From NCBI GenBank assembly GCA_027080135.1, contig JALWUJ010000053.1, positions 1-59,407 on the forward strand: a DNA stretch of 59,407 nt, given 5' to 3'. This document shows positions 5,192 to 56,787 of this stretch, in pieces. The notes beneath the pieces are model-generated. The model did not search any database, was not told the DNA's origin, and was given only the letters and a program-made list of their open reading frames with translations. A program made the position numbers and the translations under genes. Each line of letters begins with the position of its first letter. Position 1 is the first letter of the stretch. The stretch is from Flavobacteriaceae bacterium (GTDB taxonomy: Bacteria > Bacteroidota > Bacteroidia > Flavobacteriales > Flavobacteriaceae).

Positions 5192-5544
5192 TGGAAGCTC
5201 AAGATCAATTATTTTTAGCCTTTGGATATTGCATTTTTATGCTTTTGGTATCTTTTATTTTTATGAAATTTCCACCTAAAAAAATGAATTATTTTTACGG
5301 TTATCGCACTCGAAGATCTATGGCAAACCAACAGATTTGGAGAGTAGCCAACGAGTATTCGGCTAAACTAATGGTAAAAATTACCTTGATTTCATTTGCA
5401 TTACCTCCTGTGCTTTACTTTCTTTATCCACAACTCAATTTATTAATCACTATAATTATCCATACCGTTATGTTGCTTTCCACCTTATATTTTACCGAAA
5501 AGTTATTGAATAAAGATTTTGACAGGAACGGAAATCCAAAATAA
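5191..5544 (+). CDS. SdpI family membrane protein
   Basis: FYGYRTRRSMANQQIWRVANEYSAKLM motif. Confidence 0.75.
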   Translation: MEAQDQLFLAFGYCIFMLLVSFIFMKFPPKKMNYFYGYRTRRSMANQQIWRVANEYSAKLMVKITLISFALPPVLYFLYPQLNLLITIIIHTVMLLSTLYFTEKLLNKDFDRNGNPK

Positions 5545-7037: not shown

Positions 7038-7638
7038 AAAAGTTGGTTTGTTTTTCGGAACTTTTAATCCCATTCACGTGGGACATTTAATTATTGCCAA
7101 CCATTTAGCAGAACATTCCGATTTAGCAGAAGTTTGGCTAGTGGTTACTCCTCACAATCCGCATAAAAAAAAGAAAACTCTTTTAGACGATATTCATCGT
7201 TTGGCAATGGTAAGAATTGCCATAGAGGATTATCCAAAACTAAAGGCAAGTAATATAGAATTTGGTTTACCCCAACCTAATTATACCGTAAAAACCTTAG
7301 CTGTTTTAGAAGAAAAATATCCTGAATTAGAGTTCTGTTTAATTATGGGCGAAGACAATTTAAAAAGCCTTCATAAATGGAAAAATTTTGAGGTGATCTT
7401 GAAGCGACATGCTATTTATGTGTATCCGAGGGTTACACCTCCATCATCAACAGTTATTAATACGGAAGCTTCCCCTTTTGAAGGGGGATTGAGAGGGATG
7501 TTTACAAAAATAAACGCCCCAATCATTGAAATATCTTCCACTTTTATTAGAAAAAATATTGCTTCAGGAAATGAGATTCGTCCAATGTTACCTAATAACG
7601 TTTGGGAATATTTAGATGAGATGAATTTTTATAAATAG
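7030..7638 (+). CDS. nadD: Nicotinate-nucleotide adenylyltransferase
   Basis: GLFFGTFNPIHVGHLIIA and ISSTFIRKNIASGNEIRPMLPNNVWEYLDEMNFY. Confidence 0.93.
   Translation: MPKKVGLFFGTFNPIHVGHLIIANHLAEHSDLAEVWLVVTPHNPHKKKKTLLDDIHRLAMVRIAIEDYPKLKASNIEFGLPQPNYTVKTLAVLEEKYPELEFCLIMGEDNLKSLHKWKNFEVILKRHAIYVYPRVTPPSSTVINTEASPFEGGLRGMFTKINAPIIEISSTFIRKNIASGNEIRPMLPNNVWEYLDEMNFYK
7429..7503 (+). repeat. In-frame repeat-like insert within nadD (approximate bounds)
   Basis: Encodes VTPPSSTVINTEASPFEGGLRGM, not expected in NadD; ccttttgaagggggattgagaggg resembles an interspersed Bacteroidetes repeat. Confidence 0.55.
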
Positions 7639-9143: not shown

Positions 9144-10697
9144 TTAATTGTTATTTTTAAGGATAACATTTTCTTGGGTCTCTCCACTATTGTAATTTTT
9201 AATTACATTATAAAGCCCTGGTTGTAAATTATCTATATAATCAGGGTTATTTACAACAGAAGAATCTTGTTGGGTAATTGTTACATTGGTATTTAAAACA
9301 CCATCGTTAAATTTTACAAGTACTCCACTACTTGCACCCGTGCCTGTATTCCAACATTTTCTAGGCTGTTGTTCCAATTGTGCAATACGTATTGCAAACC
9401 TATCTTTATGAATGATTGTATTGTAGTAATCTATACTTATATCTTTGTTAAAACCATACCACCACAATCCTCCTTCTAAATAACTAAATGAAACATAATA
9501 ATCAGCTGGTTGTGGATATTCCCCATCCGGATAACAGCTTAAAAAAGAATAATCGAACCCTGGTTGAAATTTTGGTGGGTTTGTATTTACCAAAACACTT
9601 GCATCATAAACTCCAACATAAGGTTCGTATAAAGAAGGTACATCTGTTTGTATATCTAGTAAAGCTGGAGTATTCTCTATATATTCTCGCATTCTAACTC
9701 CTTGTCCAGGTGAAAAGACACGATCTTCACAAGGACTAGCATTTAACATTATATTTCTTACATCATCAGGTAATATATCATACTCCTCATCTATACAATC
9801 CATTCCAGTGCCTGTATAAAAACAACCTTCAGTATTCACATATTTAAAGGGGATAAAAACTTCAAGAGCGTCTTCTAGGCTATGCCCTTCATCTAATAGT
9901 TCTTGTAAATGTTCTCTATAAAAGTCAGGGACTGCATTGGTATCATGTATTCTATCTCCTCTACAGTTTGCATTATAATCAGGATTATTTATAATTCTTG
10001 TAGTGTGTTCACAGCCTACACAAGGGTAATTGTTAGAGGTAGTATTAGCATCTGCTGTCCAGCCTATATTGGTGTGACTTAAGCCAAAAATATGCCCAAG
10101 TTCATGATATAAAATAGGCTTAGTAAGTTTATTAATAGACACCAATATTTTATTAATCCCAGTAGCTGCCCCACCAACATCGGTTATCTGATAAGGAACA
10201 TAAATATTAATCATATCTGGCTTATAGTATCCCTGAGCAGTAGCATAATTCCACATATCTCCTCTTTGACAACGACTAATTTTCCCCCAACCATCAGAAT
10301 CAGGACCTAGTTCATCGCAACTAGTCGTTGCTGGATTCCAAATTTCTTCAATAATCCCTGTAGGGCTATTAAACCCATCATAGCCTCTGTATTTAAAAAA
10401 GATATTAAGGTCATTAAACTTAATATTTAATTCTGCAATACTTTCTAATAGCTTTTCTTCTGTGAAATTTGCATCATAACTTCCATCTGGTTTTCTAATC
10501 TGCCAATAATAAACATTAAAAACTATAGGGTCTGCTTCTTGATATATAGTAGGGTCTGTTGAGAACGAATAGTTTTGAGTATCTCCTATTGGCACATAAT
10601 CTGGATTTGCACATTCTATATTTGCATATTGAGAAAATGTAAATTGCACAATACCCAAAATACAAATTAAGGTAAAAAATAGTTGTTTTTTCATCAT
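9144..10697 (-). CDS. Secreted zinc metalloprotease (M43/pappalysin-like), probable T9SS substrate
   Basis: HELGHIFGLSHTN (HExxHxxGxxH); signal peptide MMKKQLFFTLICILGIVQFTFSQ. Confidence 0.8.
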   Translation of the reverse strand: MMKKQLFFTLICILGIVQFTFSQYANIECANPDYVPIGDTQNYSFSTDPTIYQEADPIVFNVYYWQIRKPDGSYDANFTEEKLLESIAELNIKFNDLNIFFKYRGYDGFNSPTGIIEEIWNPATTSCDELGPDSDGWGKISRCQRGDMWNYATAQGYYKPDMINIYVPYQITDVGGAATGINKILVSINKLTKPILYHELGHIFGLSHTNIGWTADANTTSNNYPCVGCEHTTRIINNPDYNANCRGDRIHDTNAVPDFYREHLQELLDEGHSLEDALEVFIPFKYVNTEGCFYTGTGMDCIDEEYDILPDDVRNIMLNASPCEDRVFSPGQGVRMREYIENTPALLDIQTDVPSLYEPYVGVYDASVLVNTNPPKFQPGFDYSFLSCYPDGEYPQPADYYVSFSYLEGGLWWYGFNKDISIDYYNTIIHKDRFAIRIAQLEQQPRKCWNTGTGASSGVLVKFNDGVLNTNVTITQQDSSVVNNPDYIDNLQPGLYNVIKNYNSGETQENVILKNNN

Positions 10698-10820
10698 TAA
10701 TAATTTTAAAATTAAACAATAGTTTTCTATAAGCACAAGATTTCTAGAGATCTTGTACAGTTTTACTTGCAAGTTTTTTGCTAATTAATGTGAGGGAGTT
10801 TGTGCTAAGATATAAAAAAT

Positions 10821-10874: not shown

Positions 10875-11112
10875 GAATTCAGACACTAAAAATAAAGAGC
10901 TATTGCTTTGGTTAGCAAGAAGAATTAAATCCTTAAGAACAAGTAAGGGCTTAACTCAATTACAATGTTTTAATGACACTAATATTCATTTTGGTAGAAT
11001 TGAACAAGGAAATAGAGATATATCTTTTTTGACTCTTTATAAAATCTGTTGTTATCTAGAAATTAGTCATAAAGATTTTTTTAAAAATTTAGAGTTAGAA
11101 ACTGATAATTAA
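10858..11112 (+). CDS. XRE-family HTH transcriptional regulator
   Basis: LARRIKSLRTSKGLTQLQCF...RIEQGNRDISFLTLYKICCYLEIS helix-turn-helix. Confidence 0.8.
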   Translation: MTLVSLNSDTKNKELLLWLARRIKSLRTSKGLTQLQCFNDTNIHFGRIEQGNRDISFLTLYKICCYLEISHKDFFKNLELETDN

Positions 11113-11120
11113 AAAAACAA

Positions 11121-11205
11121 AGTTTCTGGAAAAAATATTCGTCCTTTATTACCTAAAAATGTTTGGGAATATTTAGATGAGATGAATTTTTATAGAGAGA
11201 CTTAA
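11121..11205 (+). pseudogene. Displaced nadD 3'-end fragment
   Basis: Reads VSGKNIRPLLPKNVWEYLDEMNFYRET*, versus NadD ASGNEIRPMLPNNVWEYLDEMNFYK*; 34 nt identical at the 3' side. Confidence 0.85.
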
Positions 11206-17561: not shown

Positions 17562-18341
17562 TTATAATTCTTTTAAATCCGAAAGAGGAATCCAACCATC
17601 TTTTCCGTTGGCAATTTCAATTAAGGCCCAATCTGCATCTTTTTCTTTAATTTGCACTTTAGTTCCTTCATGAAGTGTAAATGAAGTTTCACTACCCAAA
17701 CTCGGCGCTTCTTTTACCTCGATACTTTCGGAAAATATAATAGCTGGTTGATTGTTAATCGTATCTTTATAAGTTGAAAACGCCATAGAAAGAGCTATTC
17801 CGAATAATAAAATGGAAAGCATTGAAGTCACAAAAAACAAACGTTTTCTTTCTTCCGAAAAAGAAAAATAATAAAGCAAAAACAACACGGCAAACACAAC
17901 GGAAAAAACGACAACAGCCTTAGCCCACCCTTCAAAAGTTAAAATTTCTGCCAAGTTAGAATACCATTTATTAAAAATGGTTTGAGGCAAAGGTTCAATA
18001 TCGTCAACAGTGGCATTTTGGGCAAAGGCTAAATTGTTTTTTATATCGCTATCGTTAGGGGCAAGTGCTAATGCTTTTTCGTAATAATAAATACTTGGAC
18101 CAATATTATTGAGCTTATAATGTGCATTACCGAGGTTAAAATACAAATCGGCAGAATGATGCTTGTTTTCTAGAATCTTCATCCATGAGTTGACTGCTTC
18201 TTGATATTTTTCGGCTTTATAAAGCTCTTTTCCTTGCTCAAACAATGGTCCGTTTTGAGCAAAGTTACTACTTACAAAAAGTAGGGCAATTGCCAACAAC
18301 AACTGCTTTAAATAACGTATAATTCTTAACTCATAACTCAT
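17562..18341 (-). CDS. batE: BatE-like TPR + SH3 protein
   Basis: TPR repeats, TM, C-terminal SH3; position in bat operon. Confidence 0.75.
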   Translation of the reverse strand: MSYELRIIRYLKQLLLAIALLFVSSNFAQNGPLFEQGKELYKAEKYQEAVNSWMKILENKHHSADLYFNLGNAHYKLNNIGPSIYYYEKALALAPNDSDIKNNLAFAQNATVDDIEPLPQTIFNKWYSNLAEILTFEGWAKAVVVFSVVFAVLFLLYYFSFSEERKRLFFVTSMLSILLFGIALSMAFSTYKDTINNQPAIIFSESIEVKEAPSLGSETSFTLHEGTKVQIKEKDADWALIEIANGKDGWIPLSDLKEL

Positions 18342-18385
18342 AACTCTTTACTATTTCTTATAAATTTTCGCAAACACCTCTGCTA

Positions 18386-33423: not shown

Positions 33424-33428
33424 AAAAA

Positions 33429-33460
33429 ACCCTGTTAGATTTTAAAAACCAAGCAGGGTT
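33429..33460. terminator. Putative bidirectional terminator beyond the ALDH 3'-end fragment
   Basis: aaccctg...cagggtt hairpin. Confidence 0.55.
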
Positions 33461-33480
33461 GAATTTATATTAAAATTTAT

Positions 33481-33714
33481 TCTCTACAAATCAAATTTAA
33501 TTCCTTGTGCTAAAGGTAATTCGTCTGAGTAATTTACTGTATTGGTTTGTCTTCTCATATACACTTTCCAAGCATCAGATCCAGACTCACGTCCGCCACC
33601 TGTTTCTTTTTCGCCTCTAAAAGCACCTCCAATTTCAGCACCTGAAGTTCCAATATTTACGTTGGCAATTCCACAATCTGATCCTGCATAACAAAGAAAT
33701 TTTTCAGCTTCTTT
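33481..33714 (-). pseudogene. Displaced aldehyde dehydrogenase 3'-end fragment
   Basis: 234 bp aligned by eye to 37943-38176 with about 11 mismatches; encodes [75 protein letters not shown]. Confidence 0.93.
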
Positions 33715-33848
33715 GGTTTCAAATATTATTTTCACTAAATTAGCAACAGTAACCCACTAGCGAAATAAATTATTTTTTATTTCTCCCCCGCATAGTTGAG
33801 GTGTTTATGAACCTGCCGTACTAAAACGGCAATAAAAACCTTTTAATT

Positions 33849-36800
33849 ATGAAATTTAATTTTACCCCCCCCCCTCAAGTATTATGCCATTGTTATAACT
33901 ATATTGGCTTGTTTTAATGGATTTTCACAAGGAATTTTACAGCCTTCCAATGAAAAATCATATACAGAGTATATGGACAATGTCTTAGAAACCTTAGTAC
34001 AAAATGATGTAAGTATTTTTAAAAATGGAATATTATACGATAGAGTTTATCCTCAAGCTAGATTAGTAGCTTTTAATACTGCTGATACGGTAAATACTTC
34101 TAATTACAATCATTTTAAGAGTTCTTGGAATGAATTATATAAAGCAAGTATTAATCCCAATTTTACACAATTAGAAGATATTGAAAATATTGCTTATCAT
34201 TTTGAAAGAGAAGGAGTAATACAATTTGGTATCATAAATGTTGATTTTACTTATATTAATCCAAGTTCATTAGGATTAAATAATGCTAAACTAGAAGTTG
34301 TAAATTCTAAGATACAAAAGTTAGCCAATATAAATCCTTATATCCATAAAAACGCCACGGTAATATCACCCTTAAACTCAGAAACTTTAAGAGGAGAGAA
34401 TATTACCTTTGAATTTGGTAAAATATTTTTAGAAATGTCAGAAAACCCTATTAAAGAACTGACAGCATATTTTGAAAATAACCAAACCTATCAAATAATT
34501 ACAGCAGGAAATAGCCCTATACCTTCCATAAATGTATCGTTTCAAGAAAGTGGGAATAAAGAAGTTAGGTTTGAAATTACATTTAACGATAATACTACGT
34601 TAACAACTTATTCTAATTTTAGACTAATCGCATCACCACCACCCATAACAGGTGTACAAACTATTGAAGCTACAAAACCTTTTCAAGGCTATGACGAACC
34701 AAGTAGTTGTAACGGCACTTGTTTAGGGCAAGGAGAGTATAAAATTTATCTATCCAGTGAGCATAATAATTTACAAAAACCTTTTATTATTGTAGATGGA
34801 TTTGACCCTAATGACAAAAGAAAAATTGATGCTAGTGAGAGTATTAATTTTGGTGATGATAACATTTTTGACATGATGAGTTATGGAGAAAACCTTAATC
34901 TTGTAAATAAACTTAACATCGAAGGTTTTGATGTTATCATATTAAGTTTTCCTAAATACTTAATTTACACAGAATCATATAATTTGTCTTGGGGTAATGG
35001 TACTATTGATATTAATTTATATAGAGATGGTGGCGTAGATTATATAGAACGAAATGCAAAAGTTTTAGAGGCATTAATAGAGGAAGTAAACACAACATTA
35101 GCAACTAATGGCAGTACGGAGCAGCTTGTTGTAGCGGGACCAAGTATGGGTGCTCTTATTGTACGATATGCCTTAGCAGATATGGAACAAGACAATGAAG
35201 ATCATAACACTAAATTATTTATATCTTTTGATGGTCCCCATAAAGGAGCTAATATAAATATTGGAATACAAAAAGCAATCGATTATTTTGATATTGGTGC
35301 TGCAAAATACGGCTTGGATAATCCCGCAGCTAAACAAATGTTAATTAGTCATTATTTGTCATATTCAGACGGTTTACCTGAAGGAGCTCCAAATTTTAGA
35401 AACACTTTTCAAAGCAATCTTGATAATTTAGGACTGCCACAACAGTCTCGTAATATTGCTGTAATAAATGGTAATTTAACAGGAGACGAAAAAGCTTTTT
35501 CAGGGAGTAATATGGTGTATGCAAATTTAACTGGATTTATTGGGTTTATAAGAACTAAACTATGGACAAACTACACACCTAATTCTGGTAATGCAGAGGC
35601 ATTTAGGTTTTTGTTAAAAGGTTTTTGGGGAGGAGTTACATTTATAGATTGTAAAAAATATACTAAAACTTCTTCGTCAGTTGGTAGTTTAGACAATGCA
35701 CCTGGCGGTTATTTTGCTACTAAGTCTAGGATAGAAGAAGCAACAGGCGTCCCTTTTCCTTGGACTTATCAAGGAGGATTTGGTAATTACCCAATTTTAG
35801 GAGATTATGATTTACCAATACAATTATTATTTCATTCACTTATAAATTATGTTTATATTGATGTAGTAGATGATTTTAGCTTTGTACCAACAAAAAGTGC
35901 TTTAGCTTTTAGTGGTTCAAATAATTTATGGAGAGAATCTATTGGTTGTAGAAATATGGTAGAAACAGGAGAAACACCTTTTGATAGTTATTATGCTCCT
36001 CCTGTAAATCAAGAACATACTTCTCTACATCAATCAAGTGTAAACTGGTTGATGCAGGAAGTTAATGGTCAAGAACAATTACCTACTATGTATTACCAAG
36101 ATTGTATATCAGATATTATTATATCAGATTTAGATGGTTTTGAAGGGCCGTTTTTACTTTGTGGGACAGATCAATTGACTTTAACTACAAATTATGCTGG
36201 TGGTAATGTTTATCATAATTGGTCTGTAGATGGTTTTGTAATTATTTCTGAAAATGATGGAACTATTACATTACAAAGAGATCCTAATTACACACCTCAT
36301 TATAATACTAACATTAGTGTCGCTATAGGTGCTAATGGAATGGAAAGTTTTGCTACCATTAAATGTAGCCCTCCACAATTTGGTATTGATTATGAAAATA
36401 CTACAAATGTAACAATTGCTTTAACAGATGTAGAAAATGAAATTCCATTAAGCCAACAGGCTATCACAGATGTAGATTGGGAGCTAACTAGTGGCAATAG
36501 CTATATACTAAATGCAACTACAGAACTAGCGGAACTTGACGACACTTATTTTACAGGTACTGTTACCCTAACTAATGCTGCGGGCTCAACATCTAAGTCA
36601 TTTTTCTGGCCAGACCCTAATATATGTTATAGTATTGTAAAAGTAGGTACAGACAAATACAATGTTATAGACAGATGTAACTATAATGAGATAATTGATA
36701 CAATGCCTATTAAGGAAATTTATGATATTTATGGAAATAAAATTAGTGATATTCCCATTAATTCTCAGAATTTAGATATTATTAATACAGGCAATACAGG

Positions 36801-36867
36801 CGATATACGCATTATTAGAGTAGTAATAAATGGAGAACAAGTAACAAAAATGATTTTTAAAGACTAA
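33849..36867 (+). CDS. Large secreted protein with alpha/beta-hydrolase-like (GxSxG) core; out of frame at C10 tract in signal peptide
   Basis: ORF 33904..36867 contains GPSMGALIVRYALAD; upstream ATG 33849 reads MKFNFTPP then C10 shifts the frame; nine C would give MKFNFTPPLKYYAIVITILACFNGFSQ. Confidence 0.75.
33865..33874 (+). repeat. C10 homopolymer
   Basis: ttttacccccccccctcaag. Confidence 0.9.
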
Positions 36868-37853: not shown

Positions 37854-37887
37854 ATACAAACTATTTTTGGTACTATTACCACCAAAA

Positions 37888-37920
37888 AATCCTACTAGGT
37901 TTTCAAAACCTAGTAGGATT
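37888..37920. terminator. Strong bidirectional hairpin terminator
   Basis: aatcctactaggtttt c aaaacctagtaggatt. Confidence 0.75.
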
Positions 37921-37945
37921 ATAAATTTATCTTTTAAATTATTTT

Positions 37946-39499
37946 CTACAAATCAAATTTAATCCCTTGTGCTAAAGGTAATTCGTCTGAGTAATTTACC
38001 GTATTGGTTTGTCTTCTCATATACACTTTCCAAGCATCAGATCCAGACTCACGTCCGCCACCAGTTTCTTTTTCACCTCCAAAAGCACCTCCAATTTCAG
38101 CACCTGAAGTCCCAATATTTACATTGGCAATTCCACAATCGGAACCTGCATAACAAAGAAATTTTTCAGCTTCCTTCATATCATTGGTCATAATTGCCGA
38201 TGATAATCCTTGTACTACTCCATTCTGAATATCAATGGCATTTTCTACATCTCCCGAATATTTAATTAAATATAAAATAGGTGCAAATGTTTCGTGTTGT
38301 ACAATTTCGTAATGGTTTTCTGCTTCAATAATTGCTGGTTTTACATAGCAACCACTTTCAAATTCTTCTCCACTTAAAACGCCACCTTCAACTAATACAT
38401 TTCCGCCTTCTGCTTTTGCTTTTTCAATAGCAGATAAATACATTTTCACCGCATCTTTATCGATTAGTGGTCCCATATGCTTGGTTTCGTCTAAAGGATT
38501 TCCAATCACAATTTGTTGGTAAGCGCCTACAATAGCATCGCGTACTTTATTATATACAGATTCGTGAATAATCAATCTTCTGGTAGATGTACAACGTTGT
38601 CCGGCAGTACCAACTGCACCAAATACTGCACCTGGAACTACAACTTTTAAGTCGGCAGTTGGTGTGATAATGATGGCGTTGTTTCCTCCTAATTCTAATA
38701 ATGATTTCCCGAAACGTTCGGCAACAGTAGTTCCCACAATTCTACCCATACGAGTAGAACCTGTAGCAGAAATTAACGGAACTCTTTTATCGGTCGTCAT
38801 CATTTCACCTACTTTATAATCTCCGTTGATGATACAAGAAATTCCTTCTGGAAGGTTGTTTTCTTTTAAAATATCGGCGATAATATTTTGACAAGCGATA
38901 GAACAAAGTGGTGCTTTTTCTGAAGCCTTCCAAACACAAACATCACCACAAATCCAAGCCAAAGCTGTATTCCAAGACCAAACGGCTACTGGAAAATTAA
39001 ATGCAGAAATAATACCTACAATTCCTAAAGAGTGCCATTGCTCACGCATTACGTGTCCAGGTCTTTCCGAAGGAATGGTTTGTCCGTTTAACTGTCTTGA
39101 TAAACCAACTGCAAAGTCACAGATGTCAATCATTTCTTGAACTTCGCCATACCCTTCTTGTAGTGATTTTCCCATTTCGTAAGAAACCAACTGACCCAAA
39201 GGTTCTTTTAATTCTCTTAATTTATTTCCAAACTGACGAACAATTTCTCCGCGTTGTGGTGCAGGAACAGCTCTCCATTGTTTAAATGCAGCTTGGGCAG
39301 TTTCAATTACACGGTCATAATCTTCACGAGTAGTTGTTGTTACTTTTCCGATTAATTTTCCATCTACAGGAGAATATGAAGAAATCATTTCTCCTTCAGA
39401 AAACCAATTAGAACCTGTTGAAGTTCCTTGGTTGAGTTCTTTAACTCCTAATTTTTCTAATGCATTTTCAATTCCAAATGCGGTTGCTACAGTAGCCAT
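37946..39499 (-). CDS. Aldehyde dehydrogenase (ALDH7/antiquitin-like)
   Basis: FNFPVAVWSWNTALAWICGDVCVWKASEK, ELGGNNAIIITPTADL, GTAGQRCTSTRRLIIH. Confidence 0.92.
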   Translation of the reverse strand: MATVATAFGIENALEKLGVKELNQGTSTGSNWFSEGEMISSYSPVDGKLIGKVTTTTREDYDRVIETAQAAFKQWRAVPAPQRGEIVRQFGNKLRELKEPLGQLVSYEMGKSLQEGYGEVQEMIDICDFAVGLSRQLNGQTIPSERPGHVMREQWHSLGIVGIISAFNFPVAVWSWNTALAWICGDVCVWKASEKAPLCSIACQNIIADILKENNLPEGISCIINGDYKVGEMMTTDKRVPLISATGSTRMGRIVGTTVAERFGKSLLELGGNNAIIITPTADLKVVVPGAVFGAVGTAGQRCTSTRRLIIHESVYNKVRDAIVGAYQQIVIGNPLDETKHMGPLIDKDAVKMYLSAIEKAKAEGGNVLVEGGVLSGEEFESGCYVKPAIIEAENHYEIVQHETFAPILYLIKYSGDVENAIDIQNGVVQGLSSAIMTNDMKEAEKFLCYAGSDCGIANVNIGTSGAEIGGAFGGEKETGGGRESGSDAWKVYMRRQTNTVNYSDELPLAQGIKFDL

Positions 39500-52181: not shown

Positions 52182-53279
52182 TTGGATGAAACCCTTTCAT
52201 ATAGAAAAATAATCCACGTAGATATGGATGCGTTTTACGCTTCGGTAGAGCAATTGGACAATCCCGAATTGCGTGGAAAACCAGTTGCTGTTGGCGGAAG
52301 TTCAAAACGCGGAGTGGTAAGTGCCGCTAGTTATGAAGCTCGAAAATTTGGAGTTAGAAGTGCTATGAGTAGTGTGATTGCTCTTAAAAATTGTCCTGAG
52401 TTAATCTTTGTAAAGTCAAACTTTAAACGATATCACGAGGTCTCGGACCAAATAAGAAAAATATTTCACGAATACACCGATTTGGTAGAACCACTTTCTT
52501 TAGATGAAGCCTATCTTGACGTTACCGAAAACAAAAAAGGGAATCCGAGTGCGACTTTAATTGCTGAAGAAATAAGACAAAAGATTAAAGAAAAAACAGG
52601 ATTGAATGCTTCTGCTGGAATTTCCATCAATAAATTTATTGCTAAAATTGCAAGTGATATCAACAAACCAAACGGACAAAAAACAGTACCTCCCGATGAG
52701 GTTTTAGAATTTTTAGAAAGACTGGATATCAAGAAGTTTTATGGAGTTGGAAAAGTAACCGTAAAAAAAATGTATCGCTTAGGAATTTTTACTGGACTGG
52801 ATTTAAAACAAAAATCGAAAGCGTTTTTAGAAGAGAATTTTGGAAAAAGTGGTCGGTATTATTATCACGTAGTTCGAGGAGAACATCACAGTCCTGTAAA
52901 ACCTTCGAGAACCCGAAAATCATTAGCTGCTGAACGCACTTTTAGTGAGAATATCACTTCAGAAATATTTATGCTAAAAAAGCTAGAAACCATTGCCGAA
53001 GAAGTAGAACGCCGTCTTAAAAAAAGCAAAGTCGCTGGAAAAACCATTACTCTTAAAATTAAATACAGTGATTTTACACTCCAAACCCGAAGCAAAACTT
53101 TGCCTTTGTATATTTCGACCAAGGAATTAATTCTTGAAAATGTTAAAGAATTGTTATTTCAAGAACCCATGAAAAACTCGGTACGGTTGTTGGGAATAGC
53201 CCTATCGAATCTGAACAACGAAAAAGGAAAAGTTCCTAAAGAAAAAGTGGTGGCGGTTCAATTACAATTTGATTTTTAA
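52182..53279 (+). CDS. dinB: DNA polymerase IV
   Basis: IIHVDMDAFYASVEQLDNPELRGKPVAVGG; SLDEAYLDVTE; TTG start. Confidence 0.95.
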   Translation: MDETLSYRKIIHVDMDAFYASVEQLDNPELRGKPVAVGGSSKRGVVSAASYEARKFGVRSAMSSVIALKNCPELIFVKSNFKRYHEVSDQIRKIFHEYTDLVEPLSLDEAYLDVTENKKGNPSATLIAEEIRQKIKEKTGLNASAGISINKFIAKIASDINKPNGQKTVPPDEVLEFLERLDIKKFYGVGKVTVKKMYRLGIFTGLDLKQKSKAFLEENFGKSGRYYYHVVRGEHHSPVKPSRTRKSLAAERTFSENITSEIFMLKKLETIAEEVERRLKKSKVAGKTITLKIKYSDFTLQTRSKTLPLYISTKELILENVKELLFQEPMKNSVRLLGIALSNLNNEKGKVPKEKVVAVQLQFDF

Positions 53280-53285
53280 ATAGAG

Positions 53286-54476
53286 TTAGCCTTTTTTTAA
53301 TATTTTTTTAGTTACAACACCTTCTTCAGTTTGTAATTGCATAAAGTAGATACCATTACTAAAGTTTGAAACATTAATGGTATTTATGCCTAGCAAAAAC
53401 TTTCCCTCTTTTACTATTTTTCCATGGATGTTAAATAGTTTAAACGTAGTTTTTGACTTCGTTGAAACAACTAAAAAATCTGTTGTAGGATTAGGGTATA
53501 TCTTGACGAAGGATTGATTAAAATCGAAAACACTTAATGCTTCACATTCTTCTTCGTTATTAACAAAAGTAGTATTGGCATCAATAGACCAATCCTCTAA
53601 ATAGGAAGCACTTGCGTTATCTACAAAAATACAATCAAGATTAGACGACGTGGCATCAAAATAAATTATTGAAGCGTTATTGCCGTTTCTTATATCTATA
53701 TTATTTAATTGAGCATTGGAATGAGCAACAAGTCTTTCTAAATTAATATTCTCTGTAAGTATTAATGAAGACAAATTATTATTTATACAACCTAGATTAT
53801 TTAATTGAATATTATTAGATGTTTCTAAATTTTCTATGCTATTATGTCCAATATTTAAAGTTGTTAATTCGATATTTTGAGAAATATCTATACTTGTTAA
53901 TTGATTGTCCCATGCAATTATATCTGATAAAACAACACATTGAGTAATGTTTAAATTGGTAAGTTGATTGCTATGGCAATCGAGCAAAGTAAGTGAAGAA
54001 CATTGAGAAAGATCTAAACTGATTATCTGGTTTTCATAACATTCAATAGTGTGTAAATAAGAACTATTTAACTCTAAATTTGTTAAATAATTCCCCATAC
54101 AAACCACCCAAGTTAGCTCAGTATTATTAGATAAATCTAAGGCAGTAAGGTTATTAAATGCACAACCAACTATAGATAGGGCAGTATTTTGAGAAAGGTC
54201 AATACTACTAACTTGGTTATAACTAAAATCTAAAAACTCTAAAGCTATAAAATCTTCAATCCCTGTAAGATCTGTTATTCCATAAAAAGAAGGTAAGTCT
54301 AAAGTAGTAACTGTATTAATATTAGCAGTTAAAACAAGGCCATTATTTGGAATACCATCCCCCATTCCTGTATTTTCTAAATAACCTTCAAAAACAGGAT
54401 CTGGTATTACAGTGTATTGTGCGGAAATAATTGTTGTACTTAACAATAAAAATATAAAAAATATTTTTTTTTTCAT
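53286..54476 (-). CDS. Secreted leucine-rich-repeat protein with T9SS type A sorting domain
   Basis: LDLSNNTELTW/LDCHSNQLTNLNITQC repeats; IYPNPTTDFLVVSTKSKTTFKLFNIHGKIV...GIYFMQLQTEEGVVTKKILKKG. Confidence 0.9.
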   Translation of the reverse strand: MKKKIFFIFLLLSTTIISAQYTVIPDPVFEGYLENTGMGDGIPNNGLVLTANINTVTTLDLPSFYGITDLTGIEDFIALEFLDFSYNQVSSIDLSQNTALSIVGCAFNNLTALDLSNNTELTWVVCMGNYLTNLELNSSYLHTIECYENQIISLDLSQCSSLTLLDCHSNQLTNLNITQCVVLSDIIAWDNQLTSIDISQNIELTTLNIGHNSIENLETSNNIQLNNLGCINNNLSSLILTENINLERLVAHSNAQLNNIDIRNGNNASIIYFDATSSNLDCIFVDNASASYLEDWSIDANTTFVNNEEECEALSVFDFNQSFVKIYPNPTTDFLVVSTKSKTTFKLFNIHGKIVKEGKFLLGINTINVSNFSNGIYFMQLQTEEGVVTKKILKKG

Positions 54477-54486
54477 AAATTGTATT

Positions 54487-55633
54487 TTAATGATTTATAA
54501 TAATCTGTTTAATAGTTAGTTCTCCATTTTCAAAAAAATGAAGATAATAAATTCCTTCATCTAAGGAAGATACATCTAGGGTATTTAATACATTTTGGCT
54601 TTCTCCAGAAAGTACTACATTACCATAACTATCGCATAAATTAAAAGTGTAAATAGTGTTAAATGCCTTGTTTGTTAAATCTAAGTTTAAAACTTCGTTT
54701 GAAGAATTTGGATAGTAATTAAGTAATGAAGTAGCACAAGGATTTACTGCCGAGTTAGAATATGTTGAAACCAATTGAAGAAAAGGAAATACTGCTAAAG
54801 CTGTTTTTATTCTTTTACTTTGCTCAAATGTTAAATATTCCATACAATAGGGATGAGAATAAGACATGATGTTTTTTTCGTCTGGGTCATACCAATCTCC
54901 ATTATCCTCAACCCCACTTCCTGTCCATTCGCAATTTGATAAATCTATATTAAAACCCATATTAGGGTCTGCTGGAGTATCTGTAATATAATCTCCACAA
55001 ACATCAGAGTTTGAACCATCTACAAGTTCATCACATGCATCTGGGTCTTCGTTTGAATCTTCTCCATGATGTGTATGCCATAAATTAAACACGTGTCCCA
55101 TTTCGTGAGAAAGAATGTGAGATTTTGGCAACGAATATAAAAGCTCTTCATATCCTACAAAATAACCAGTAACCATAAGCTTTGAAGTTTCTCCTACATT
55201 TGTTGTTGAACCATAACCCAATCCAGTAACAGGGTGTACAACAGAATCATCAAACAAATAAATATCTACTCCATCTTGATTCTCTGGTAAAGAAAGCCAA
55301 TAACCAGCAGGATTATCAAATATAGCCGTATCATCAATATAATTTATAATATTATCCCAATCAAAATATATTTGATATGGATTAAAATCAAGATCTAGAT
55401 AACTTAACGCCTCATTAACATCTGAAATAGATTGTCCACCAGTATGGTTATCTTTTCTAATCACATGAACATATATTTTAACACAAAAAGCATACTGTGA
55501 ATAATCTGGGTGTGTTGTATTTAACAGAAGGGATTTATTTGGAGAATAATCTGAGGTAATACAGTAATCTTGACCCTTAATACTAAAAGTAAACAAAAGA
55601 ATTAATAGCGGTAAGTAGCGGTAAGTTTTTTCA
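54487..55633 (-). CDS. Secreted zinc metalloprotease (M43-like) with T9SS tail; start region out of frame because of a 10-bp tandem repeat
   Basis: SHEMGHVFNLWHTHHG; T9SS-like tail. ATG 55631-55633 followed by (ACTTACCGCT)x2 runs into TAA; the body frame resumes LPLLILLFTFSIKGQ. Confidence 0.78.
55607..55626 (-). repeat. 10-bp tandem repeat x2 in signal-peptide region
   Basis: agcggtaagtagcggtaagt. Confidence 0.85.
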
Positions 55634-55732
55634 TAATTGTTGCATTATCTAATAATTATGAATAAATATACAAAAAAAATGATTATTAAAATAATAACAA
55701 TACTCATCATATATCTAATTATGATTAACATG

Positions 55733-55882
55733 TAATTCTTGAAAATGTTAAAGAATTGTTATTTCAAGAACTCATGAAAAACTCGGTACGGTTGTTGGGA
55801 ATAGCCTTATCGAACCTGAACAACGAAAAAGGAAAAGTTCCAAAAGAAAAAGTAGTGACGGTTCAATTACAATTTCATTTTT
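55733..55882 (+). pseudogene. Displaced dinB 3'-end fragment
   Basis: 150 bp aligned by eye to the end of dinB from 53128 with about 7 mismatches; encodes ILENVKELLFQELMKNSVRLLGIALSNLNNEKGKVPKEKVVTVQLQFHF*. Confidence 0.95.
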
Positions 55883-55983
55883 AATGGAGTCTCGCAAAGA
55901 CGCAGAGACCGCAAAGCAAAACAGAAAATAATATATGTGAGAAAACTACTTAATCTTTTTTTTAACCCTAACACACTCACATT

Positions 55984-56787
55984 ATGAAAACTGTAAAAAT
56001 TGTAAGCATTGCTTTAGTTAGCACTATTGTATTCTTCTCTTGTAAAAATGAGGAAAATACTCCCGAAACAATCAATCCTTCATCAACCAATTTAGCTCTT
56101 ATAGAAGCTATTCCTTCCGAAGAAATTTCGACAAACGAATATCTTTATGTCACTGCTTCCACCGGACTTAGTTTAAGAGAATATGCCAATTTACAAAGCG
56201 AAAAACTAGCGGTTATGCCTTACGGAACTCGTGTAAAAGTAATTGCTTCTGAAAAAAAACCAACAATGAAAGTTGGCTCAATTAAAGGTGGAATGGACGA
56301 AATTGAATACAACCAAAAGAAAGGTTTTGCCTTTAATGGTTTCTTATCTAAATATTTCCCACCTGAAAAAGGAATTTCGGCAAAACGATATGCTGAAGAA
56401 TTGAAAGTAGATTTTCCAGACATTTCATTTTTAAAAACGGTTGGAGGAACGGCAAGCAGACCCACCAATACAGAAACATTGATTTTACCTGAAGCACAAT
56501 GGAATGAAGCATTTAATATAGCTCAAAATCTGTTTAAATTTCCAAAAGAATTTGTGTTCCCTTCTTCAAAAGGAAAGGATTTTGAAACCATTAAAGAGAA
56601 AAAGTTTCAGAGAGATGCTTCCAAAGCACTCAAAAGTTCTTGGACAAGTGAATTGCAGGTTTCTCGAAAAGACGAAGCTGTAACAAAAATTGAATATGTT
56701 TATAAAAACAAAGGTTTTTCAAAAGTTGTGAGTATTATAAAAGAAGAAAACTCTATGAAAATTTCAAGCACAGAAATAGTAGAATAA
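55984..56787 (+). CDS. SH3-domain lipoprotein
   Basis: FFSCKNEENT lipobox; LYVTASTGLSLREYANLQSEKLAVMPYGTRVKVI. Confidence 0.8.
   Translation: MKTVKIVSIALVSTIVFFSCKNEENTPETINPSSTNLALIEAIPSEEISTNEYLYVTASTGLSLREYANLQSEKLAVMPYGTRVKVIASEKKPTMKVGSIKGGMDEIEYNQKKGFAFNGFLSKYFPPEKGISAKRYAEELKVDFPDISFLKTVGGTASRPTNTETLILPEAQWNEAFNIAQNLFKFPKEFVFPSSKGKDFETIKEKKFQRDASKALKSSWTSELQVSRKDEAVTKIEYVYKNKGFSKVVSIIKEENSMKISSTEIVE

Follow-up and report, generated by a model that had tools for sequence, protein, structure and literature searches.

The 59,407-nt stretch of DNA analyzed here, referred to as the window, carries on its minus strand a gene for a predicted secreted metalloprotease whose leader is interrupted at a short tandem repeat, which raises the question of whether the gene has been turned off reversibly by slippage or has simply been inactivated. 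The only usable ATG of the gene (55634-55632, minus strand) opens a frame of 10 codons, MKKLTATYRY* (55602-55634), that is closed by a TAA at 55604-55602. Codons 3-10 of this leader, in the region coding for the signal peptide, hold two copies plus one base of a 10-bp, non-triplet unit (ACTTACCGCT; 55606-55626, minus strand), which Tandem Repeats Finder returned over the same interval as 2.1 copies of the plus-strand unit TAGCGGTAAG with 100% identity. An A6 run in codons 2-3 (55626-55631, minus strand) shares the first base of the repeat and constitutes an alternative slippage site. The body of the gene is read in a frame of 385 codons from stop to stop (54490-55644), ending at 54487, in which neither ATG nor GTG was found 5′ of the mature part. 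From its 5′ end this frame reads CNNYEKTYRYLPLLILLFTFSIKGQDYC..., which resembles a signal peptide and lies in a frame other than that of ATG 55634. As assembled, the gene lacks what is expected of T9SS cargo, namely a Sec signal peptide at the N-terminus that is read in the frame of the start codon.

On re-reading the sequence, the coordinates of the repeat and the aborted peptide at two copies were found to be as the first-pass annotation had given them, and its translations for zero and three copies proved correct when checked by hand; either of these repeat counts restores the full-length frame. The zero-copy leader would be 15 aa long, as compared with about 17-25 aa in the intact leaders of the genome's Por-tail genes, and is therefore the least likely ancestral form. 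Addition of one A to the A6 run also brings ATG 55634 into the frame of the body, giving MKKTYRYLPLLILLFTFSIKGQ, so the assembled sequence is silent on whether the A6 run or the 10-bp repeat slipped. Indeed, a one-base change in the A6 run is as short a route to the observed state as a change in the decamer.

The body frame (54487-55596, minus strand), as defined by its ORF, profile matches, and alignment, contains the zinc site HEMGHVFNLWH, the Met-turn NIMSY, and a C-terminal Por_Secre_tail sorting domain (PF18962; E=2.7e-9, over the cut-off). The zinc site, a DTPADP stretch, and the Met-turn aligned with six homologues, and the H, E, G, H, H, and M columns were invariant in this alignment of about seven sequences. 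We predict from these features that the gene encodes a secreted, T9SS-type metalloprotease that is M43/M12-like. It shares with M43 (pappalysin/ulilysin-type) and M12-like T9SS metalloproteases the HEXXHXXXXXH motif, the Met-turn, and the Por_Secre_tail, but differs in having N where the zinc motif usually has G and in scoring just below the Pfam cut-offs (20.9 bits vs. 23 for PF05572, Peptidase_M43; 24.6 bits vs. 27 for PF13574, Reprolysin_2). A PDB search with the protein returned weak matches to the sorting domain and to ulilysin (2cki) only, and an AlphaFold model, built on a shallow alignment, was discarded as being of no use (pLDDT 34.8). The nearest relative of the metalloprotease is a paralogue on another contig of the same genome (C159), with 43% identity and an intact leader. 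In all, 46 Por-tail matches were found in the genome, making it likely that T9SS machinery genes are present. Its T9SS cargo, together with the genes that it contains, points to Flavobacteriaceae as the probable family of the genome.

An out-of-frame start is unusual for this family. The best 30 loci obtained from 400 genomes included 29 from other genomes, and in all 29 of these an in-frame ATG was followed by a signal-peptide-like leader, leaving the window gene as the sole exception. The leader DNA was also searched for in 18 sister genomes, where only weak, AT-rich upstream matches and no repeat-bearing relative were found. The nearest relative in another group, from a gut Porphyromonadaceae MAG (L036; 53% identity in the best segment), is itself frame-broken, at an internal G8 in the catalytic domain (about 5414-5440 of that locus).

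Markov simulation of windows of like composition (30 runs) gave an expectation of 0.23 perfect 10-bp doublings per window, so one such doubling somewhere in the window is unremarkable and amounts to weak evidence. The position of the decamer is stronger evidence than its presence. In 300 kb of the genome, a non-random sample made up of the window and 37 regions chosen for their secreted-protein genes, we found five perfect arrays with non-triplet units of 10-17 bp, and the only genic one, the decamer of the metalloprotease leader, coincides exactly with the frame break. No further 10-bp leader repeat was seen among 329 signal-peptide-like ORFs. Arrays of 7-8-bp units occurred nine times in leaders vs. 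once at codons 60-80, but were rejected as a specific signal as they are mostly T-rich, probably owing to hydrophobic codons. No DNA hairpin above chance was detected at the decamer repeat, and a scan for sigma-70-type promoters gave fewer sites than were found in shuffled sequences. Elsewhere in the window, at 18312-18352, a 7-bp repeat with several overlapping ATGs was observed at the start of a gene for a signal-peptide TPR/SH3 protein that is in frame as assembled.

The age of the lesion can be gauged from the state of the body and from the site in which the gene resides. An old pseudogene would be expected to show several inactivating lesions, and the first-pass annotation had named an accumulation of nonsense mutations in the body as the observation that would speak against its proposal. 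We looked for such changes and found neither stops nor frameshifts in 369 codons, which favors a recent or reversible lesion. The metalloprotease gene lies between dinB (52182-53279, plus strand) and a gene for an SH3-like lipoprotein (55984-56787, plus strand). These genes adjoin one another, within 66-166 bp, in 17 of 18 sister genomes, and in the 18th the contig ends first; none has the metalloprotease at this site, marking it as an accessory gene. Self-BLAST and comparison with the 18 sister genomes showed that the 3′ end of dinB is present twice in the window: as the functional end (53128-53279, plus strand) and as a displaced, drifting copy next to the lipoprotein gene (55733-55884, plus strand), with 95.4% identity between them. 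Of 152 sites, 7 distinguish the two copies, whereas 15 or more separate either copy from any sister species, so the dinB ends separated within this lineage. About five of the changes are derived in the displaced copy, and some of these alter the protein. The insert also carries, 3′ of the metalloprotease gene, a gene for an LRR protein with a Por_Secre_tail (53286-54476, minus strand), the ATG of which lies 10 nt past the metalloprotease stop; this spacing suggests that the two are probably co-transcribed. The LRR gene has an A10 tract of its own in codons 2-4 (54464-54473), which is in frame.

Neutral decay of the metalloprotease was simulated assuming that indels make up 5-10% of substitutions and that the dinB copies diverged only after the insertion (an origin of the insert in a donor strain would shorten the time). 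At the rate of the displaced dinB copy (0.026-0.033 per site), the probability of a body without lesions was about 0.007-0.07, rising to 0.14-0.27 at half that rate (0.013). The low chance of drift without lesions suggests that the metalloprotease probably worked during much of its time in this genome and that the lesion in its leader is either recent or reversible.

These results lead us to favor, with a probability of about 0.45, the reading that the metalloprotease leader is in a slippage-type OFF state which, given the intact body, is potentially reversible. The gene would have been gained recently and its leader would then have changed in length, in either the decamer array or the adjoining A6 run. 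Ribosomes starting at ATG 55634 would stop after 10 codons and no enzyme would be exported; replication slippage would alter the length of the tract, and a gain or loss would turn the gene ON again. We infer that cells of the population truly differ in tract length and that this has consequences for the cell. Two 10-bp units and an A6 run are below the tract length at which frequent slippage is expected, and with only two repeat units a decamer switch should be slow and of low rate. Thus, of the earlier proposal of slippage-driven switching or recent inactivation, the frame break at a slippage-prone, non-triplet leader repeat with an intact body was upheld, but switching by the 10-bp unit itself was not, in view of its two copies and the alternative offered by the A6 run.

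The same facts could follow from ordinary inactivation, in which a one-off indel, in the repeat or of a base in the A-run, yielded a young pseudogene that is bound to decay and does not switch. We consider this quite possible: with only two units the tract is short for phase variation, the gene is accessory at the dinB site, and three further Por-tail genes in this genome are broken in their bodies by stops or a frameshift (L144, L128, and L138, on contigs C31, C20, and C148), which makes plain decay a serious rival. Such an indel, however, would have had to fall in the sole genic non-triplet array rather than elsewhere in 1.1 kb, it is accompanied by no second lesion, and the arrangement is repeated, with poly-C tracts, among related genes, as described below. 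It is unlikely that the break is an assembly or consensus error and that the true leader is in frame, for instance with a seventh A or a different number of repeat units. The assembly is a draft in 173 contigs, is 81% complete, and may blend strains, and the break does lie in a low-complexity stretch, but a 21-bp repeat and an A6 run are short relative to current read lengths and nearly all other long genes in the window are intact.

Expression of the gene as it stands, from a TTG at 55596 or through slippage of the ribosome or the polymerase on the A-run, is less likely still. While a TTG-started frame exists, it begins MFTFSIKGQ, and the absence of a hydrophobic core in this sequence implies that the product would not be exported; the close homologues start at in-frame ATGs. 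The AAAAAAC sequence does not have the register of a classical -1 slippery heptamer, and a run of six A residues is short for polymerase slippage. A TTG start and ribosomal frameshifting were rejected on the grounds of the lost signal peptide and the register, respectively.

A stronger case for phase variation than that of the decamer is presented by poly-C tracts in the leaders of other secreted enzymes. The first-pass annotation had stated that another cassette of the window also has a broken leader. This was right, and the link that it provides is stronger than the decamer finding itself: a lipase-like gene (33849-36867, plus strand) carries a C10 tract (33865-33874) at the same place, behind its start codon (33849-33874 for start and tract). 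The ATG frame stops early, the body encoding the lipase-like secreted protein is open (33904-36867), and C9 or C12 would be in frame (MKFNFTPPLKYYAIVITILACFNGFSQ). This gene is probably phase-variable. In a sister genome (G003), a homologue of the window metalloprotease, itself of the M43 type and carrying a Por-tail match, has an out-of-frame C8 leader that closely resembles the leader of the lipase-like gene. In a scan of 400 genomes, tracts of C8-C11 between the start and the hydrophobic core were found in other genera as well, out of frame in five further genomes (G096, G329, G083, G305, and G118) and in frame in two (G068 and G417). Across species and genes, the assembled poly-C leader tracts range in length from 8 to 11; two are in frame and seven are not. 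The products of G096 and G083 have 35 and 34% identity, respectively, to another metalloprotease of the window (9144-10772); that of G329 has reprolysin-like, PKD, and Por-tail domains; that of G068 is similar to the N-terminal end of the window's lipase, but only along a short segment (E=7e-6); and that of G305 has a weak S8 match, below the cut-off. No family was matched by the G118 product in a profile search. These cases were hand-picked from matches to ATGAAAN{4,20}C8, which occurred in 20 of the 400 genomes vs. 17 for a reversed control, i.e., with no raw enrichment, and so the claim for poly-C leaders rests on inspection of single loci.

Some further features were observed around these leaders. 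Positions 1-300 of a locus on another contig of the genome (L161, contig C131) nearly duplicate the upstream region and poly-C leader of the lipase gene, with C9, but are followed by a different secreted gene, which suggests that upstream regions and gene bodies have been reshuffled. A short AT-rich hairpin with TCTCCCCCGC lies some 40-75 nt 5′ of several secreted-protein genes of the genome (window 33759-33791; L161 253-285; L162 1501-1533; L136 about 2444-2480; L121 about 2455-2485). In other genera, too, CTCCCC occurs 5′ of genes with poly-C leaders. It was rejected as a mark of cargo genes in general, since it preceded only 3 of 93 secreted-type genes and none of 119 others.

The metalloprotease and lipase-like genes belong to inserts of a common form. 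Self-comparison of the window revealed three inserts of secreted-protein genes, each between direct repeats of the 3′ end of the adjoining core gene. The duplicate of the nadD end lies beyond the first cassette (11108-11194, plus strand; partner 7546-7633; 88 bp, 84%), that of the aldehyde dehydrogenase end beyond the second (33424-33714, minus strand; partner 37884-38176; 293 bp, 91%), and the dinB repeats described above (53128-53279 and 55733-55884; 152 bp, 95%) flank the third. No recombinase or integrase gene was found inside the three cassettes, that at dinB consisting of the metalloprotease and LRR genes only. In sister species the sites are empty or occupied by other genes; the nadD-gpsA gap, for example, is about 70 bp in most sister genomes and holds different inserts in others. 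The flanking duplication was absent from inserts in the same 3′ ends in three sister genomes (G014, G009, and G012), and is therefore not a constant feature of the site. The arrangement is like that of integrative elements at gene 3′ ends in that the insert lies between two copies of the host 3′ end, the gene remains intact, and the displaced copy drifts, but differs in that no integrase lies between the repeats and that these are long and diverged (88, 152, and 293 bp; 84-95%). Long, diverged repeats are more suggestive of single-crossover uptake of DNA, and we infer that the cassettes arose by homologous recombination of incoming DNA. Recombination between the 152-bp dinB repeats would delete the metalloprotease cassette.

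Slipped-strand mispairing at simple sequence repeats causes translational phase variation in Neisseria, Campylobacter, and Helicobacter (PMC6321876, PMC2823697). The metalloprotease leader is similar to these systems in that an early, non-triplet repeat puts the start out of frame with an intact body in a gene for a surface or secreted protein. Unlike the poly-C or poly-G tracts of 8-11 bases that are typical there, the repeat described here is made up of two 10-bp units, belongs to a Bacteroidota gene for T9SS-type cargo, and is known from one assembled sequence. A search of the open-access literature, outside which most subscription journals lie, gave no description of T9SS cargo genes with poly-C leaders. 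The decamer may be a weaker variant of the poly-C leader switch or a fresh knock-out. In the former case, it would be a weak, atypical relative of a family habit in which tract changes, mainly in poly-C, in the n-region of the signal peptide switch secreted degradative enzymes. The wider proposition, that n-region tracts (mostly poly-C, here 10-bp) toggle T9SS-type exported degradative enzymes across the family so that part of the population pays for them, and that the genes travel as cassettes at core-gene 3′ ends, is rather doubtful at present.

Phase variation by repeats is well described in host-adapted pathogens and much less so in Bacteroidota, for which the literature is dominated by promoter inversion. 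If it operates in free-living relatives as outlined here, annotation would be discarding working genes for exported proteases and lipases as pseudogenes, and the secretion of costly, shared enzymes would be open to study as a heritable ON/OFF trait.
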